From: Bacteroidales bacterium
GTDB taxonomy: Bacteria; Bacteroidota; Bacteroidia; Bacteroidales; JAADJA01
NCBI GenBank assembly: GCA_030596605.1
Contig: JAUVJI010000012.1
Location: 1 to 48,090, forward strand
Direction of reading: 5' to 3'
Length of the DNA: 48,090 nucleotides
The notes under the pieces are model-generated. The model was given only the letters and a program-made list of their open reading frames with translations, searched no databases and had not been told where the DNA came from. Made by a program: the position numbers and the translations under genes. Positions 17,845-42,537 of the stretch are shown here, in pieces. Numbering within the stretch: the stretch's first letter is position 1; every line of letters starts with the position of its first letter.

Positions 17845-17918
<74 letters not shown>

Positions 17919-21201: not shown

Positions 21202-21650
21202 TATTAACAGTCCGTTCTATCGTCCCGCCGCAGGCGGGAAGGAAAGTCGGGACAACACAGAGCGCCGTACTTCCTAACGGGAAGGCTTTCTTGATGCGTT
21301 AAGCGTAACCGTTAAGCGTCATCAAAAGAGACAGCAAGTGCCGCAGAAAATAACTGCCGACACCGGGGTTTTTGGTTAGTTGGGCGTTACTTGAAAGAGT
21401 AAAGCCCTCCTTCGCCAAGGCTTCGGAGGGCGAGGGTGAAAATGTGAGGTAAGAGCTCACAGGTTGGTGTGGTGACATATCAATCGGGTAAACCTTACGG
21501 GTTGAAAGGCCATGTATACCGGGGCTGAAGGGCTGCTCGCCCGATCCCGGGGGGTTGGCCGCTAGATACTGATGGTGACATCAGGGTCAGATAAATGATA
21601 GAACCCCGATAGCTATCGGGGACAGAATCCCGCTTACAGGGCTGTTGATA
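21202..21650 (+). ncRNA. rnpB: RNase P RNA
   Basis: About 449 nt. The ends pair as P1 (TATTAACAG with CTGTTGATA). Conserved elements are in order: GGAAAGTCGGGACAACACAG, AGAGACAGCAAGTGCCGCAG with AAATAACTGCCGAC, GGTGAAAATGTGAGGTAAGAG, GGCCGCTAGATA, GATAAATGATAGAA and the 3' ACAGAATCCCGCTTACAGG. This is the catalytic RNA that matures tRNA 5' ends. Three variable helices consist of perfect or near-perfect palindromes that look like dispersed genomic repeats (21223-21239, 21404-21431, 21604-21621). A palindromic terminator follows at 21661. Confidence 0.95.
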
Positions 21651-21660
21651 CAAGATATAT

Positions 21661-34556: not shown

Positions 34557-34598
34557 ATTTTATCCAAAATCATCCAAACAGAGTTCCCTCCTACAATT

Positions 34599-34690
34599 AA
34601 AAAAGCCCTACCGAAGCAGGGCTAAAGTTCTTTTCGAACTACGGCATATAGCCTTATTGTGATAAGATTTAAAAAAGGAATTTTTAATCT
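34599..34690 (-). ncRNA. tracrRNA of the type II-C CRISPR system
   Basis: On the minus strand, starting a few bases after TATATTTG (34697-34704), lies an anti-repeat (34656-34678, CCTTTTTTAAATCTTATCACAAT). It can pair in two bulged blocks with the crRNA repeat: GTTGTG with CACAAT, and ATAAGA plus AAAAGG with TCTTAT and CCTTTT. Next come AAGGCTATATGCCGTAG, a short nexus hairpin, then AGTTCGAAAAGAACT, and a terminator (GCCCTGCTTCGGTAGGGC plus T run). Order and structure match known II-C tracrRNAs. Transcript about 92 nt, divergent from cas9. Confidence 0.85.
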
Positions 34691-34759: not shown

Positions 34760-37700
34760 TTGATCTTGACAAAAATTTTAGGACTCGACCTTGGTACTAA
34801 TTCTATTGGGTGGGCAATTGTTGATGACGACAAAAAACAAATACTCGAAGCGGGCGTGAGAATTTTTCCTGAAGGTATTGAACCAAAAACATTAGGGACA
34901 GGCGATAAAGAACAATCAAAAAATGCTACAAGAAGAGAAGCTAGACAAAGTAGGCGACAAAATTTCAGAACCCGAATCCGGCGCATTAAATTGCTTGAAA
35001 AATTGATAGAACAGAAAATGTGTCCATTAACTAAAGAAGAGTTACTTCAGTGGAAGCATTATGATGCTAAAAAAGGAAAAGCAGGTTGTATATTTCCCTC
35101 CTCCAATGAATTTACAGAGTGGTTAAAACTTAATCCTTATGTATTAAGAAGTAAGGCATTAAATGAGGACATAAGCTTAATGGACCTTGGCAGAATATTT
35201 TATCATCTAATTCAGAGACGGGGATTTTTAAGCTCCAGAAAAGGTAAAGATGATGGAAAAATATTTAAAGGAAAGGATAATATTGAAGGAATTGATAAAA
35301 CAAAAGAACAAATAAAGAATTCAACATTAGGTTCGTTTCTAAATACAATATATCCAGAAGAAAATAAACCTTTTATAAATATTATAGATGAAAACGGAAA
35401 TGAGTTGAGAATAAGGTCAAGATATACTTTACGTGATATGTATATTTCTGAATTTGATAAAATTTGGGGGAAACAAGCAGATCAATTAGGACTTTCAAAT
35501 CAGGTTAAAAAAATAGAAAATACACAACAATTAAAAGGTTCAATAGAAAGCAAAAGAAATAAACATAAAATTAAATATCTGATCTCAAAATATGGAGAAA
35601 AAAATGTTAAGGTTGAAAATAATATAATTACAACTACTTATGAAATGCCGCTTAAGGAATATTTTGGTGGTAAAATAACTTATGAAAACGGAGAATTAAA
35701 ACACAAAAGCCAAAACAGTTTAATTTTCTATCAAAGACCTTTACGGTCACAAAAAGGATTACTTAGTAAATGTTCATTAGAGGGTAGAAAACTTTTCAGT
35801 TACGAAAAAAATATGATGATAGAAGTCGGACCAACCCCTGCTCCTCTATCTCATCCCGAATATGAAGAATTCAGAGCTTGGCAATTTATTAACAACATCG
35901 AATATGGAAATAAACAAAAATTAGATGATACACAAAGAAATGCAGTTATAAATTTAATTAATACAAAGGACGCAAGTTTTAAATTCAAATTAATACCAGA
36001 TGAGTTAGGTTTAAGCCACGAAACTTTTAATTATGAGAACAAATTCGATGTTATAGGAAATTACACCCATGCAAAACTGAAACCTCTGTTTTTAGATAGT
36101 TGGGGAAAGAATAAAAATGAAATATGGCACTGCTTTTATTTTTATGAGGACAATGATAAACTTATCAAAAAAATTGAAAAAAATTACAATAAAGAAATTG
36201 ATATTACTAAAATTGAAAAAATTAAATTAAAAGATGGATATGCAAATGTTTCACTTAAAGCCATACGAAATATTACACCTTTTCTAATAAAAAGATATTA
36301 CTACAGCGATGCTGTGATATTAGGAGGTGTAAGGAATGCATTTAGAACGGTAATTGATGGACAAAGTGTTGACAGGTGGGATAATTTCAAAAATGATCAT
36401 AAAATTATTGAAGATGATATAATTTCTATTGTAAAACAAAAAGAAAATAAAGAAGGTGAAGTAATTGAAAAAATAAAAACTTATTTATCAAATTTTTATG
36501 GATTCGAAAAGGATGATAAAAGTTTTAAACGATTATATCATCATAGCCAGGGAACAGAAGAAAAAGAATTAATAGATAAATTACCTGAAATAGACAATTT
36601 AAGAAACCCTATTGTTCAGCAAGGATTAAACGAATTACGCAGGTTAGTAAATACTCTGATTGACAAATACAAAAAAGAAAATTCTGATTTTAGATTTGAC
36701 CAGATAAAAGTTGAACTCGGTAGAAATTTAAGATCAAGCAAGAACCAAAGGCAGGAAATCTCTAATAGAATAAGTGACAACCGAGATAAAAATGATATGG
36801 CGAGGCAAAGATTAAATGAATATGGCTTACGTCATTCGCGTGATAATATTCAAAAATATTTACTATTTAAAGAAATAGAAGATAAAAACGGAGAAGTAGT
36901 TTGTCCATACACAGGCATAACCATTTCTATAAAAGATTTATTGGGAAGTGAAAATAAGGTACAAATAGAACATATTATCCCGAGAAGTATTTCATTAGAC
37001 GATAGCTTTGCAAATAAAACATTATGCGATGCTAAATTCAATGGTTTAAAAGGCAACAAAACACCATTTCAGTTTTATTGGGAAAATAATGACACACAAT
37101 TGTGGCGAGCTAAAAGTTGGGATGAAATTGAACAAAGAACTTTTCGATTATTACCTTATGCTAAAGCCAAACGATTTACATCGAGAAAAAAGGACTGGGA
37201 TAAAAGTGAATTTATTCAGAGACAATTAAATGACACACGCTACATAAGCAAAAAAGCAAAAGAGATTCTATCTCAAATTTGTGATAAAGACAATGTAAGA
37301 ATTATGCCCGGAAGCTTAACTTCTGAATTACGGCATTTATGGGGGCTGAATAACGTTTTACAACCTGTAAAAATTATTGATACCCCAGGCATAATTGTAG
37401 ATGAAGATAATCCAAAACCACATTGGGTTGTTTTGGGCAAAAATAAAACGGTAAATAGCATTCATCCGGTTTACAACGAAAAACCTGCTATTTCTAGAAA
37501 TGAAACAACAATATCAGGAAAAATTTCTGAAAACATTTTTACATCAAAATATTTCAAATTAAAAATTGAAACTTCCGATATGGCAGATGGAGAATATTGG
37601 GCTACGATTAAATTATCTGATAAACCACAAAAACTAATAAAAGTTTTTACAGATAAACCTGTATCAACAGAGAATGAAATAGTTTTAAGGGGTAGTATTG

Positions 37701-39385
37701 AAAAATCAAATTTTATTAATGATACAATAGGAAAGAAAGTAAAAACAAATTTAGAAAATGGTAAGTACTGGGCAAAATTTGAAGTTCTTTCGAAAAAATT
37801 CGAGATTCCTGTAAAAGATAAAAAACCAAAAAAGAAAACAAATCAGATTTTACTTTATGGCAATGTTAAATCAGGAATATTTAATTCCTATATTTATGAA
37901 TGTAAAACAAATGTTGATGACGGAAAATACTGGATTTTATTAGATATTGATTTCGGAAAATCCAAATTTATTCCTACAATGAATAAACGGCCTGAATTAA
38001 CGGAACAAAATATTATCATCTATGGCACTATAAATAACAAAGGCGCCTTTTCATCAGAAATAGACTATGAACACACCTTTATTGCTGAAAACAATTCTGG
38101 AAAATATTGGGCAGAATTTGAGATCTTAGAAAAACCTCAAACATTTTACCCTTTGAAGAATAAAGAACCTGAAATTTTGGATGAGCAAACTTTAATTGAA
38201 GGTAATATCTGGGTAGATAAATACACCGGTGAAATAAAATTTGATCCCAAAAAGAATAGGGAAGACCACCGGCACCATGCTATTGATGCCATTACCATTG
38301 CTTTAACCGAGCAAAGCTATTTGCAAAAACTAAGCACATATAATGCAAACAAAGACGAAAAGAAAAGAGGGAATCCCCACAATAAACCTGTGTTTGATGT
38401 ACCTTGGGAAGGGTTTTTTAATGATGTTCAATATACTGCTGAAAACATTTTGATTTCGCACAAAAAGAATAATCCGGTTTTAACCGAGATCTCTAAAATA
38501 ATTTATAAAAATGGGAAAAAATATAAAAGCAAAGGCTATGCTGCCAGAGGCTCTCTACATAAAGAGTTTGTTTTTGGCAAACGGACTCCTCCTGCTAAAG
38601 ATGAAGCTTATCATATCAGAAAATCATTAGAAAGTCTTAAAACAGAGAAACAAATTAATAAGATTGTTGATGATAAAATTAGAGAAATTGTACATAAAGC
38701 AAAAATTGAGGAGAAAGAAATCAACAAAAAAATTGAAAATCTGCAAAAAAGTCTAAAATCTGCAAATAATGATTATGAAGAACAAAGCATAAAAGGAGAT
38801 ATCGAAATATTACAAAATAATATCAAGATGCTTTACACTCTTCCGAATAAAAGAGGAGAAAGGGTTCCGATAAAAAAAGTCAGGATTAGAGAAAATATAA
38901 GTAATGCTGCAAAACTAAAATCAGTAAATCAGTTTGTTAATCCACGTAACAACCATCATGTTGTAATATATAAAGATTCAAACGGTGATTTACAAGAACA
39001 TATAGTCACATTTTGGGAGGCTGTAAAAAGAAAATTACAGAAACAACCTCTTTATCAATTGCCCCCTCCTGAAAAAGAAAAACCCGAACCTGTTGAAATT
39101 ATTGAAACACTTGAGCAAAATGATATGTTTTTACTAGGATTAACAAATAATGATTTTGATAATAATAAAAACAATTTTTCTTATTTAAGTCAACATTTGT
39201 ATAAGGTTGAGGCAATTTCTTCTAAATATTATGAATTCAGACATCATTTAGAATCAACACAGAATCGAGAATATGAGCCATATTATTACATTTTAAGTAG
39301 TTTAGGCAAAGGCAAAAAAGGTTGGCAAAACTTTAATCCTATTAAAGTTAAAATTTCTCCAACCGGTAAAATCATGAAAATATAA
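34760..39385 (+). CDS. cas9: Cas9, type II-C, with tandem-repeat insert in the RuvC-III region
   Basis: 1541 residues. RuvC-I carries Asp10 (LGLDLGTNSIGWAI). An arginine-rich bridge helix (about 57-80) is followed by the recognition lobe, RuvC-II Glu652 (VELGRN), HNH His738 (QIEHIIPRS) with Asn761, the WGLN motif at 861-864, and RuvC-III His1173 and Asp1176 (HRHHAIDA). Between WGLN and RuvC-III is an insert of roughly 300 residues. It contains four repeats of about 57 residues, each with GxYW (944, 1001, 1055, 1114), plus a fifth partial unit. The C-terminal PAM-interacting region follows. All nuclease residues are present, so it should be active. The start is TTG at 34760 or 34766; an in-frame stop at 34736 excludes anything further upstream. 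Confidence 0.95.
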   Translation: MILTKILGLDLGTNSIGWAIVDDDKKQILEAGVRIFPEGIEPKTLGTGDKEQSKNATRREARQSRRQNFRTRIRRIKLLEKLIEQKMCPLTKEELLQWKHYDAKKGKAGCIFPSSNEFTEWLKLNPYVLRSKALNEDISLMDLGRIFYHLIQRRGFLSSRKGKDDGKIFKGKDNIEGIDKTKEQIKNSTLGSFLNTIYPEENKPFINIIDENGNELRIRSRYTLRDMYISEFDKIWGKQADQLGLSNQVKKIENTQQLKGSIESKRNKHKIKYLISKYGEKNVKVENNIITTTYEMPLKEYFGGKITYENGELKHKSQNSLIFYQRPLRSQKGLLSKCSLEGRKLFSYEKNMMIEVGPTPAPLSHPEYEEFRAWQFINNIEYGNKQKLDDTQRNAVINLINTKDASFKFKLIPDELGLSHETFNYENKFDVIGNYTHAKLKPLFLDSWGKNKNEIWHCFYFYEDNDKLIKKIEKNYNKEIDITKIEKIKLKDGYANVSLKAIRNITPFLIKRYYYSDAVILGGVRNAFRTVIDGQSVDRWDNFKNDHKIIEDDIISIVKQKENKEGEVIEKIKTYLSNFYGFEKDDKSFKRLYHHSQGTEEKELIDKLPEIDNLRNPIVQQGLNELRRLVNTLIDKYKKENSDFRFDQIKVELGRNLRSSKNQRQEISNRISDNRDKNDMARQRLNEYGLRHSRDNIQKYLLFKEIEDKNGEVVCPYTGITISIKDLLGSENKVQIEHIIPRSISLDDSFANKTLCDAKFNGLKGNKTPFQFYWENNDTQLWRAKSWDEIEQRTFRLLPYAKAKRFTSRKKDWDKSEFIQRQLNDTRYISKKAKEILSQICDKDNVRIMPGSLTSELRHLWGLNNVLQPVKIIDTPGIIVDEDNPKPHWVVLGKNKTVNSIHPVYNEKPAISRNETTISGKISENIFTSKYFKLKIETSDMADGEYWATIKLSDKPQKLIKVFTDKPVSTENEIVLRGSIEKSNFINDTIGKKVKTNLENGKYWAKFEVLSKKFEIPVKDKKPKKKTNQILLYGNVKSGIFNSYIYECKTNVDDGKYWILLDIDFGKSKFIPTMNKRPELTEQNIIIYGTINNKGAFSSEIDYEHTFIAENNSGKYWAEFEILEKPQTFYPLKNKEPEILDEQTLIEGNIWVDKYTGEIKFDPKKNREDHRHHAIDAITIALTEQSYLQKLSTYNANKDEKKRGNPHNKPVFDVPWEGFFNDVQYTAENILISHKKNNPVLTEISKIIYKNGKKYKSKGYAARGSLHKEFVFGKRTPPAKDEAYHIRKSLESLKTEKQINKIVDDKIREIVHKAKIEEKEINKKIENLQKSLKSANNDYEEQSIKGDIEILQNNIKMLYTLPNKRGERVPIKKVRIRENISNAAKLKSVNQFVNPRNNHHVVIYKDSNGDLQEHIVTFWEAVKRKLQKQPLYQLPPPEKEKPEPVEIIETLEQNDMFLLGLTNNDFDNNKNNFSYLSQHLYKVEAISSKYYEFRHHLESTQNREYEPYYYILSSLGKGKKGWQNFNPIKVKISPTGKIMKI

Positions 39386-39509: not shown

Positions 39510-39537
39510 GTAGCGACATGCCGCGGCATGTCGCTAC
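39510..39537. repeat. REP-like palindrome 1
   Basis: A 28-bp perfect palindrome, arm GTAGCGACATGCCG. One of five related copies around the RAYT gene. Confidence 0.8.
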
Positions 39538-39559: not shown

Positions 39560-39587
39560 GTAACGACACGCCACGGCGTGTCGTTAC
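39560..39587. repeat. REP-like palindrome 2
   Basis: A 28-bp palindrome, arms GTAACGACACGCCA / CGGCGTGTCGTTAC. It differs from copy 1 by substitutions that mostly keep pairing. Confidence 0.8.
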
Positions 39588-39623: not shown

Positions 39624-40235
39624 ATGAACTATTATAAAAACAAATACAGACAAAACACAACACGGTTGAAAAACTGGGATTATTCATCTCCATGTGCATA
39701 TTTTGTTACTATTCGTACAAAAGACGGTGAATATTATTTTGGAGATATCGAGAATAATAAAATGAAATTTTCTGAAATTGGCCGAATAGCGTATAAATAC
39801 TTTGCTGAAATTATTAAAAGATATCCTAATACAATTATTGATGATTATGTTATTATGCCGAATCATGTTCATGGATTGATTTTGATTACTGATGAAAATG
39901 GAAATTTTTATTTCCGGAACTATTCAATTAGCAACACGGTATGTAGCGTCATGCCGCGGCATGACGCTACTGTGATGAAACCAATAATCAATTCATCAAA
40001 TAAAAACAAATTTGGCGGATTAGTCAAAAATTCAATCCCTTCCATTATTAATCATTACAAAGGAGATGTTACAAAATATGCCAAAAATAATGAGATCGGA
40101 TTTCAATGGCAACCTCGTTTTTATGACCGGATTGTAAGAGATAAAGATGAATTATTCAGGATTAAAAGATATATTGTGAATAATCCCAAAAATTGGGAAA
40201 GGGATAAAAATAATTCGGATAAAATTTTGATGTGA
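39624..40235 (+). CDS. REP-associated tyrosine transposase (RAYT, Y1 family)
   Basis: 203 residues. The Y1 transposase signature is MPNHVHGLI with the HxH metal pair at 81 and 83. The N-terminus (RLKNWDYSSPCAYFVTIRTK) and the C-terminal FQWQPRFYDRIVRDKDELFRI are as in RAYT proteins. The catalytic tyrosine is probably in NHYKGDVTKY (Tyr145 or Tyr152). RAYTs are single-copy enzymes linked to REP palindromes, and five such palindromes lie around or inside this gene. Residues 107-116 (CSVMPRHDAT) are encoded by one of them. The gene lies between cas9 and cas1, splitting the usual cas operon. Confidence 0.9.
   Translation: MNYYKNKYRQNTTRLKNWDYSSPCAYFVTIRTKDGEYYFGDIENNKMKFSEIGRIAYKYFAEIIKRYPNTIIDDYVIMPNHVHGLILITDENGNFYFRNYSISNTVCSVMPRHDATVMKPIINSSNKNKFGGLVKNSIPSIINHYKGDVTKYAKNNEIGFQWQPRFYDRIVRDKDELFRIKRYIVNNPKNWERDKNNSDKILM
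39943..39970. repeat. REP-like palindrome 3, inside the RAYT coding sequence
   Basis: A 28-bp palindrome, arm GTAGCGTCATGCCG, lies in frame in the transposase gene and contributes about nine codons. Confidence 0.8.
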
Positions 40236-40255: not shown

Positions 40256-40283
40256 GTAGCGACATGCCACGGCATGACGCTAC
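40256..40283. repeat. REP-like palindrome 4
   Basis: A 28-bp imperfect palindrome, arms GTAGCGACATGCCA / CGGCATGACGCTAC, 20 bp after the RAYT stop and upstream of cas1. Confidence 0.8.
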
Positions 40284-40324: not shown

Positions 40325-41218
40325 ATGTTAAAACGTACCCTGTTTTTCTCTAACCCATACCACCTGAGCACTAAAAACGAACAACTAATTGTTTCAGACA
40401 AAAATTCTGGTGAAGTAAAGCAGGTATCCGTTGAGGATACCGGATTTGTAATATTTGACCATCCGCATATTACCTTTACCCAGTCGGTTATGCAAAAACT
40501 GGCCGAAAACAATACGGCTGTGGTATTTTGCGACCAGAAACATCATCCATCTTCTTTATTGTTTCACCTGGACACAAATTCAGTACAGACAGAATTATTC
40601 CGCCATCAGGTTGAATCAAGCGAACCTTTAAAGAAAAACCTGTGGAAACAAACCATAGAAGCCAAAATAAAAAACCAGGCAGCCTTGCTTCAAAAGTCAG
40701 GTGTTGAAAACAAACTGATGGACACATTAGCATCAAGGGTAAAAAGCGGGGATACATCCAATATTGAGGCCCAGGCATCAAGAATTTACTGGCAACATGT
40801 TTTTGGATTGAAGAAGTTTAAACGTGAACGTTTCGGTATGCCACCAAATCCATCTTTAAACTATGGCTATGCCATTTTGAGAGCGGCAGTTGCCAGGGCG
40901 TTAGCCGGGTCGGGTTTACTGCCTACACTGGGTATTCACCATCATAATAAATACAATGCCTATTGCCTTGCCGACGACATTATGGAACCATACAGGCCAT
41001 ATGTGGATGAAATTGTGCAAAAGCAAATGAAAGCCTCAGCCGAATATCATAACCTTACAAAAGAGAGGAAAGCTGAACTATTGAATATATTATCATGTGA
41101 TACTGATTTCGGAAAAATAAAACGCCCCTTAATGGTAGGCCTATCTCTTACCACATCCTCGCTTGCCAAATGTTATGCAGGAAAACAGAAAAAAATCACA
41201 TATCCAACTTTAAGATAA
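40325..41218 (+). CDS. cas1: Cas1, type II CRISPR integrase
   Basis: 297 residues, the length and form of type II Cas1. The N-terminus MLKRTLFFSNPYHLSTKNEQ and the VFCDQKHHPSS segment are typical. Catalytic positions are Glu148 (SNIEAQASRIYW), a histidine in GIHHHNKYNAYC (205-207) and Glu221 in DDIMEPYRP. With Cas2 it forms the spacer-integration complex. It begins about 40 bp after a REP-like palindrome, and cas2 follows 88 bp later. Confidence 0.96.
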   Translation: MLKRTLFFSNPYHLSTKNEQLIVSDKNSGEVKQVSVEDTGFVIFDHPHITFTQSVMQKLAENNTAVVFCDQKHHPSSLLFHLDTNSVQTELFRHQVESSEPLKKNLWKQTIEAKIKNQAALLQKSGVENKLMDTLASRVKSGDTSNIEAQASRIYWQHVFGLKKFKRERFGMPPNPSLNYGYAILRAAVARALAGSGLLPTLGIHHHNKYNAYCLADDIMEPYRPYVDEIVQKQMKASAEYHNLTKERKAELLNILSCDTDFGKIKRPLMVGLSLTTSSLAKCYAGKQKKITYPTLR

Positions 41219-41306: not shown

Positions 41307-41645
41307 ATGTCCCACCATCGTCTAAACGCATATCATATCATGTGGCTCTTTGTATTTTTCGATATGCCGACCAATACCAAAAAGGAGCGGAAGGCAGCAG
41401 CCCGATTCAGGAAAAACCTGTTAAAGGACGGATACTCAATGATGCAATATTCGGTTTATATACGTCACTGTGCCAGCCGCGAAAGCGGCGAAGTACATAT
41501 AAGGCGGGTAAAAAGTTTCCTTGAAGAAGCCGGGCAGGTGAGCATCCTGTCGGTAACCGATAAACAATACGGAAATATTTACAATTACTGGGGCATCAAA
41601 TCCAACCCCCTTCCGGAAGCCCCGAAACAATTAGAATTATTTTAA
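41307..41645 (+). CDS. cas2: Cas2, CRISPR adaptation protein
   Basis: 112 residues with the Cas2 ferredoxin fold: WLFVFFDMPTNTKKERKAAA at the N-terminus with the conserved Asp, FRKNLLKDGYSMMQYSVYIR, and SILSVTDKQYGN. Cas2 dimers bridge Cas1 dimers during spacer uptake. A REP-like palindrome at 41665 and the CRISPR array follow. No csn2 or cas4 gene is present. Confidence 0.95.
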   Translation: MSHHRLNAYHIMWLFVFFDMPTNTKKERKAAARFRKNLLKDGYSMMQYSVYIRHCASRESGEVHIRRVKSFLEEAGQVSILSVTDKQYGNIYNYWGIKSNPLPEAPKQLELF

Positions 41646-41664: not shown

Positions 41665-41692
41665 GTAGCGACACGCCCCGGCGTGTCGCTAC
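41665..41692. repeat. REP-like palindrome 5
   Basis: A 28-bp palindrome, arms GTAGCGACACGCCC / CGGCGTGTCGCTAC, between cas2 and the CRISPR array. Confidence 0.8.
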
Positions 41693-41755: not shown

Positions 41756-42506
41756 AATATCATTTATCCCTTTTTCTTATCAAACCACAACGTACCGTAA
41801 TCCCATATATAACCATAATTTAATATCATTTATCCCTTTTTCTTATCAAACCACAACTAAATATCGATGGTGATGTTACTGTTGGTAAATATCATTTATC
41901 CCTTTTTCTTATCAAACCACAACACAGCTTTATTCACATCGAATGTTTTTCCAATATCATTTATCCCTTTTTCTTATCAAACCACAACTAGTCTGTAGCG
42001 GCGTAAAAAATTTCGGCGAATATCATTTATCCCTTTTTCTTATCAAACCACAACTCAAGTGGCTCAATGATCCATTGCTCTTCAATATCATTTATCCCTT
42101 TTTCTTATCAAACCACAACGCATGAATCTTACTTAACAGGTATATGCGAATATCATTTATCCCTTTTTCTTATCAAACCACAACAGGATGATATCACAAG
42201 ACGGTTTACCACCCAATATCATTTATCCCTTTTTCTTATCAAACCACAACAAAATGGTATTTGTCCATGAATCGGGAGTTAATATCATTTATCCCTTTTT
42301 CTTATCAAACCACAACTTATGGGTTGGATAGTATTATGGGAATCGAATATCATTTATCCCTTTTTCTTATCAAACCACAACCATACTGGCTGGATCACCT
42401 TTTATTGAAATAATATCATTTATCCCTTTTTCTTATCAAACCACAACGATTGCATTTGTTTTAAATGCGGGGGGTTGAATATCATTTATCCCTTTTTCTT
42501 ATCAAA
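41756..42506 (-). CRISPR. Type II-C CRISPR array, 11 full repeats and one truncated, 11 spacers
   Basis: Repeats of 36 bp start at 41756, 41822, 41888, 41953, 42019, 42084, 42149, 42215, 42281, 42346 and 42412 and look identical. A twelfth at 42478 matches for 29 bases and then diverges. Spacers are 29-30 bp. On the plus strand each repeat begins AATATCATTTATCCC and ends TTATCAAACCACAAC. Read on the minus strand it begins GTTGTGGTTTGATAAG, the usual 5' end of II-C crRNA repeats, and that sense pairs with the tracrRNA. crRNA is therefore expected from the minus strand, running toward cas2. The degenerate repeat at the right marks the oldest end, so acquisition is probably at the cas2 side. Confidence 0.97.
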
Positions 42507-42537
42507 ATGTCAATGAACGAAATGAATTTGAACTATT

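Follow-up and report, generated by a model that had tools for sequence, protein, structure and literature searches.

Insert-free type II-C Cas9s, including the solved Nme1Cas9 and ThermoCas9, bridge the WGL motif and the K-x-R-HHAxDA stretch of RuvC-III with 7–48 residues. Larger enzymes of this type are known from Bacteroidota. CbCas9 from Chryseobacterium (1442 amino acids (aa), solved with PcrIIC1) has ~42 residues between its WGLN and HHAxDA motifs, placing its size elsewhere, and Fp2Cas9 from Flavobacterium psychrophilum (1548 aa) is active and has its HNH aspartate replaced by glutamate (PMC12609912). Here we describe a Cas9 encoded in a 48,090-nucleotide (nt) stretch of a Bacteroidales genome (contig JAUVJI010000012.1, positions 1 to 48,090, assembly GCA_030596605.1; hereafter, the window), in which ~300 residues separate WGLN (residue 861) from HHAIDA (residue 1172) and which holds at this site an insert of ~285 aa composed of five repeated units, predicted to be all beta. 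Its RuvC, HNH and C-terminal core align with those of insert-free II-C Cas9s (the two solved proteins and L132, L133, L153 and L158 among the relatives collected here), and the WGL and HHAxDA motifs are shared. The window Cas9 resembles CbCas9 as a large Bacteroidota II-C enzyme, and Fp2Cas9 in size, Bacteroidota origin, type and HNH glutamate. Cas9d (type II-D) is likewise an RNA-guided RuvC/HNH nuclease, and the window Cas9 matches its family (NF049971) weakly, below the cut-off; Cas9d is compact (747 aa), and the available part of its description mentions no such insert (PMC11706934).

An initial annotation of the window, made from the letters alone, had proposed four repeats and a partial fifth between WGLN and RuvC-III, with GxYW motifs at residues 944, 1001, 1055 and 1114. 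The motif positions are exact and the repetition is real: pairwise alignments of the four GxYW units score 55–86, compared with shuffle maxima of 40–47. The count requires revision. A unit profile resolves five units of ~55 residues spanning residues 885–1166 (Table 1), with boundaries placed just before GxYW; unit 1, in which H-W stands in for the motif, had been overlooked, and unit 5 runs into RuvC-III through K1165-x-R1167 and then HHAIDA. Unit 3 is the most conserved apart from unit 5, the root unit. The profile was built from clade members including the window units, which makes unit counts there partly self-consistent; the shuffle test is independent of it. Against the whole 4.3-Mb genome, the profile gave five matches in cas9 (64–81 bits) and none outside it (next best E 0.54). 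As the annotation had supposed, the segment is not ordinary RuvC or WED sequence: relatives that lack it span the same interval with 7–48 residues, and the Pfam RuvC_III match to the window Cas9 is split into two separate stretches.

Table 1. Coordinates of the Cas9 insert, its units and the surrounding locus in the window.
Feature	Residues	Coordinates	Strand	Evidence
cas9, 1541 aa, type II-C-like		34760..39385	+	TIGR01865, Pfam RuvC_III and HNH_4, motif positions
Five-unit beta insert (predicted)	881-1166	37400..38257	+	Unit similarity, unit profile, AlphaFold2
Unit 1	885-941	37412..37582	+	Unit profile; opens P-H-W-V-V, H-W replacing G-x-Y-W
Unit 2	942-998	37583..37753	+	GEYW at 944; similarity test and unit profile
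Unit 3	999-1052	37754..37915	+	GKYW at 1001; unit profile
Unit 4	1053-1111	37916..38092	+	GKYW at 1055; unit profile
Unit 5 (root unit)	1112-1166	38093..38257	+	GKYW at 1114; unit profile
tracrRNA: anti-repeat, short hairpins, terminator		34598..34690	-	Repeat:tracrRNA fusion fold
cas1, type II family		40325..41218	+	TIGR03639, E 4.2e-85
cas2		41307..41645	+	TIGR01573, E 3.8e-20
CRISPR array of 11 exact 36-nt repeats (GTTGTGGTTTGATAAGAAAAAGGGATAAATGATATT), plus a degenerate copy at 42478-42507		41756..42507	-	

Relatives were sought in genomes of the order and phylum, searched as samples, and in GTDB contigs, where a first scan with the whole protein gave no match and an alignment query found relatives. 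Twenty-seven distinct Cas9s carry the insert, from Bacteroidales, Flavobacteriaceae, Porphyromonas and one metagenome-assembled genome (MAG) labelled Neomarinimicrobiota. The unit profile finds five units in 27/27, and WGLN and HHAIDA are separated by a nearly uniform ~315–335 residues; repeat number, which the initial annotation had thought might vary among the closest Cas9s, does not. In trees computed without the insert columns, the insert-bearing proteins form a single clade (Shimodaira–Hasegawa-like approximate likelihood ratio test support of 98, starred, in one tree and 99 in another). Apart from the one-unit candidates described below, Cas9s outside this clade have the short linkers that had been expected of most Cas9s. 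No insert homologue was found in phages or plasmids, viral contigs gave matches to the RuvC-III anchor only, and two weak matches outside Cas9 (L005 and L038) lacked any unit. The insert was found in 0/199 genomes of the genus of G578, taken for Flavobacterium; L078, from Flavobacterium alvei, and L079, both recorded under that genus name, carry it, so the genus of G578 may be another, or the sample may have missed such genomes.

Several members of the clade are worth recording individually. The most diverged inserts are those of the Porphyromonas-type members L090 and L049, whose units 1 and 2 lie on long branches. The five-unit Cas9 of the MAG labelled Candidatus Neomarinimicrobiota (L089) is nested among Bacteroidota ones, a placement reflecting either horizontal transfer or a binning error. 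Another genome of the window's genus (L091/L053, G011:C163) has the C-terminal part of a five-unit-type Cas9 at a contig end, and a public contig matching in the same way bears the title Chlorobiota, which conflicts with placement in this genus. Fp2Cas9 was considered for membership and rejected on residue numbering, by inference rather than sequence comparison: 680 residues follow its HNH glutamate, at position 868, whereas 804 follow E737 of the window Cas9.

Units at the same position share 28–46% identity between proteins, compared with 18–24% between positions, and different units inside one protein share 19–26%. The unit tree groups by position, needing 5 changes where the minimum is 4. 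Because units cluster by position and not by protein, the array appears to have been assembled once, before the clade diversified, with no homogenization since. The ratio of nonsynonymous to synonymous substitution rates (dN/dS) in four close pairs is 0.11–0.14 in the insert and 0.06–0.11 in the core, which shows the insert to be under purifying selection. This selection, together with the retention of length and unit number across many Bacteroidota families and the Neomarinimicrobiota-labelled MAG, makes it barely credible that the insert is neutral filler, tolerated and functionless, even though related Cas9s manage without it. An insert that is accessory, lineage-specific and less constrained than the core would also suit a protective role, shielding Cas9 from anti-CRISPR proteins or stabilizing the fold, with no direct catalytic part; a count frozen at five and distinct unit positions exceed what a simple spacer or shield needs, and we consider this role improbable.

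Three Cas9s have linkers of 64–100 residues that resemble one unit: L050 (G051), L099 (from Gracilimonas) and L170 (G073). With profile A4, G051 and G073 score 43–44 bits over the part from unit 5 through RuvC-III; Cas9s matching by the RuvC-III anchor only score ~26 bits. In the second tree, L099 and L050 are successive sisters of the five-unit clade and L170 branches elsewhere; the forks around L099 and L050 are not all well supported, and the first tree leaves them open. When the unit profile was run against shuffled linkers, the result was only suggestive, with L170 ranking 2nd, L099 4th and L050 96th of ~1440. We regard a one-unit ancestry of the array as likely, and infer that one unit, already present at the site in the sister lineages, was duplicated in tandem to give the five.

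The initial annotation had also anticipated a beta-rich module, and an AlphaFold2 model of the insert, built with 27 sequences, is all beta with approximately four strands per unit (predicted local distance difference test (pLDDT) 89, predicted template modelling score (pTM) 0.70). Foldseek found no significant match to this model in the PDB or among viral structures (BFVD), and searches of NCBIfam and PDB sequences with the insert gave nothing significant. No Pfam family exceeded its curated cut-off (best E 0.0056 in 1/12 members, with a different family for each member), and the best PHROGs value was 0.018, again with the family differing among members. The closest structural alignment, from VIA-align, is to ABC ATPases (1v43, 1z47 and GlcV; Z 5.3, root-mean-square deviation 3.9), a weak partial match covering two units and ~100 residues. 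The matched part, which we take to be the TOBE/OB-type regulatory domain, has 8% identity to the insert and is not significant in Foldseek, and the similarity may reflect no more than a common arrangement. A five-bladed propeller, an idea prompted by the five units and their permuted start, found no support in the fold searches, which gave no significant propeller match. A model of 1200 residues of the window Cas9 matches Cas9s, with CbCas9 top in Foldseek (E 9.9e-20).

Within the RuvC-III region, the insert follows the WGLN element and precedes the basic K-x-R stretch that leads into the catalytic HHAxDA; K1165 and R1167, directly after the insert, are invariant in the 27 sequences. Counting back from HHAxDA in a hand alignment, the insert enters the segment that holds what we take to be K974 and R976 of SpCas9, a segment that contacts the non-target strand. 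Across clade members, the net charge of the insert is +3 to -12 and that of the rest of the protein +21 to +82; unit 4 is net acidic in 27/27 members, and units 2 and 3 are basic in most. Because the insert is near neutral and the rest of the protein positive, a generic nucleic acid-binding role, such as that of a DNA-binding arm, is not favoured. That the insert binds and orders the guide RNA scaffold, tracrRNA binding being among the possibilities raised in the initial annotation, would accord with the presence of a trans-activating CRISPR RNA (tracrRNA) with several hairpins and with the reliance of Cas9 function on scaffold contacts; its position beside HHAxDA, in a segment tied to the non-target strand in SpCas9, and its net charge near zero speak against this, and we regard it as decidedly improbable.

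Our preferred reading, held tentatively and with rather less than even confidence, is that the insert is an accessory domain peculiar to this lineage of type II-C Cas9, a five-unit arm at the RuvC edge that affects the handling of the strand or of HNH. In such an enzyme, a fairly rigid beta arm would be anchored where the displaced non-target strand meets the cutting site. It would act mainly through contacts of its protein surface, the likeliest being those to HNH or a different Cas9 domain and to the strand as it passes; these contacts would control both the hold on the strand and the moment at which RuvC and HNH engage. Surface contacts are preferred over plain DNA binding because the insert is near neutral and its unit 4 is acidic in all members. 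A broader version, which we consider somewhat unlikely, is that Cas9 grew a new domain from within: duplication of one small beta unit at the non-target-strand edge of RuvC gave an arm fixed at five units, which regulates HNH docking or the handling of the strand, and enzymes with no unit, one unit and five units survive as a natural series.

The main rival to an arm at the RuvC edge is a platform on which another protein docks, such as a host factor or, in spacer acquisition, Cas1–Cas2, with little effect on cutting. The near-neutral charge with its acidic and basic units, and the conservation of units by position, each with its own signature, would suit a platform, and large II-C Cas9s do bind partners, as in the CbCas9–PcrIIC1 heterotetramer (PMC13153721). 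Unlike CbCas9, the five-unit Cas9s have no PcrIIC1-like gene recurring beside them, and in the window no such PIN-domain gene lies between cas9, cas1 and cas2 or was seen beside cas9. Beyond cas1 (18/27 loci) and cas2 (17/27), no conserved extra gene was found next to cas9 in the clade, though neighbours would not be visible on several of the contigs because of their short length. We consider docking unlikely.

Several observations count against the arm and its one-unit origin. The one-unit homology is weak, with some shuffled linkers scoring equally high and an hhalign probability of only 53%. The match to K974 and R976 is off by one residue in the alignment, and the charge of the insert, being near neutral, does not point directly to DNA binding. 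Confidence in the 1200-residue model is only moderate (pLDDT 77.5, pTM 0.53), and the position of the insert relative to HNH and DNA is deduced from sequence.

The window Cas9 has the features of a type II effector: it matches TIGR01865 with E 1.2e-145 and 487 bits (cut-off 100), its split RuvC carries the catalytic D, E, H and D, and HNH lies between RuvC-II and RuvC-III. The RuvC and HNH motifs are intact, as the initial annotation had noted, with D10 in RuvC-I (GLDLG at residue 8), VELGR at 651, IEHI at 736, the HNH pair E737-H738 (36968–36973) and HHAIDA at 1172–1177. HNH reads E-H in this protein and D-H in other II-C Cas9s. The start codon is TTG, with a second TTG at 34766. The tracrRNA gene lies upstream of cas9 and is transcribed divergently; its anti-repeat pairs with the CRISPR repeat, and the two, joined by a GAAA loop for folding, form a structure of -44.6 kcal/mol (z -6.7). 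The strand of the array of clustered regularly interspaced short palindromic repeats (CRISPR) was assigned through this pairing. No match to csn2 or cas4 was found among the four locus proteins scanned, and the locus looks like a complete type II-C system of cas9, cas1, cas2, array and tracrRNA. The catalytic motifs are all in place and the locus is complete, so the window Cas9 is likely an active nuclease. The array spacers matched no phage record.

A gene for a Y1 transposase associated with repetitive extragenic palindromes (REPs) occupies 39624–40235, between cas9 and cas1. Five REP-like palindromes of 28 nt surround it (39510–39537, 39560–39587, 39943–39970, 40256–40283 and 41665–41692), one of them within the gene and one adjoining the CRISPR array, and their exact pattern has a single further copy in the remaining genome. 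The window also contains a bacterial RNase P RNA (class A; 21204–21652, forward strand) and a tRNA (17845–17918, reverse strand).

The open literature yielded no description of the five-unit insert, subscription papers and supplements lying outside the search, and the 2025 CRISPR classification, in the part available, does not describe it. A domain the size of a small protein sits beside the RuvC site of a whole Cas9 lineage, and no account of it was found although Cas9 structure and regulation are under intensive study. Relatives with zero, one and five units would allow a direct test of how an insertion at the non-target-strand edge affects cleavage, specificity and partner binding, and the RuvC-III site is a natural insertion point that tolerates ~290 residues and would be useful for fusions.

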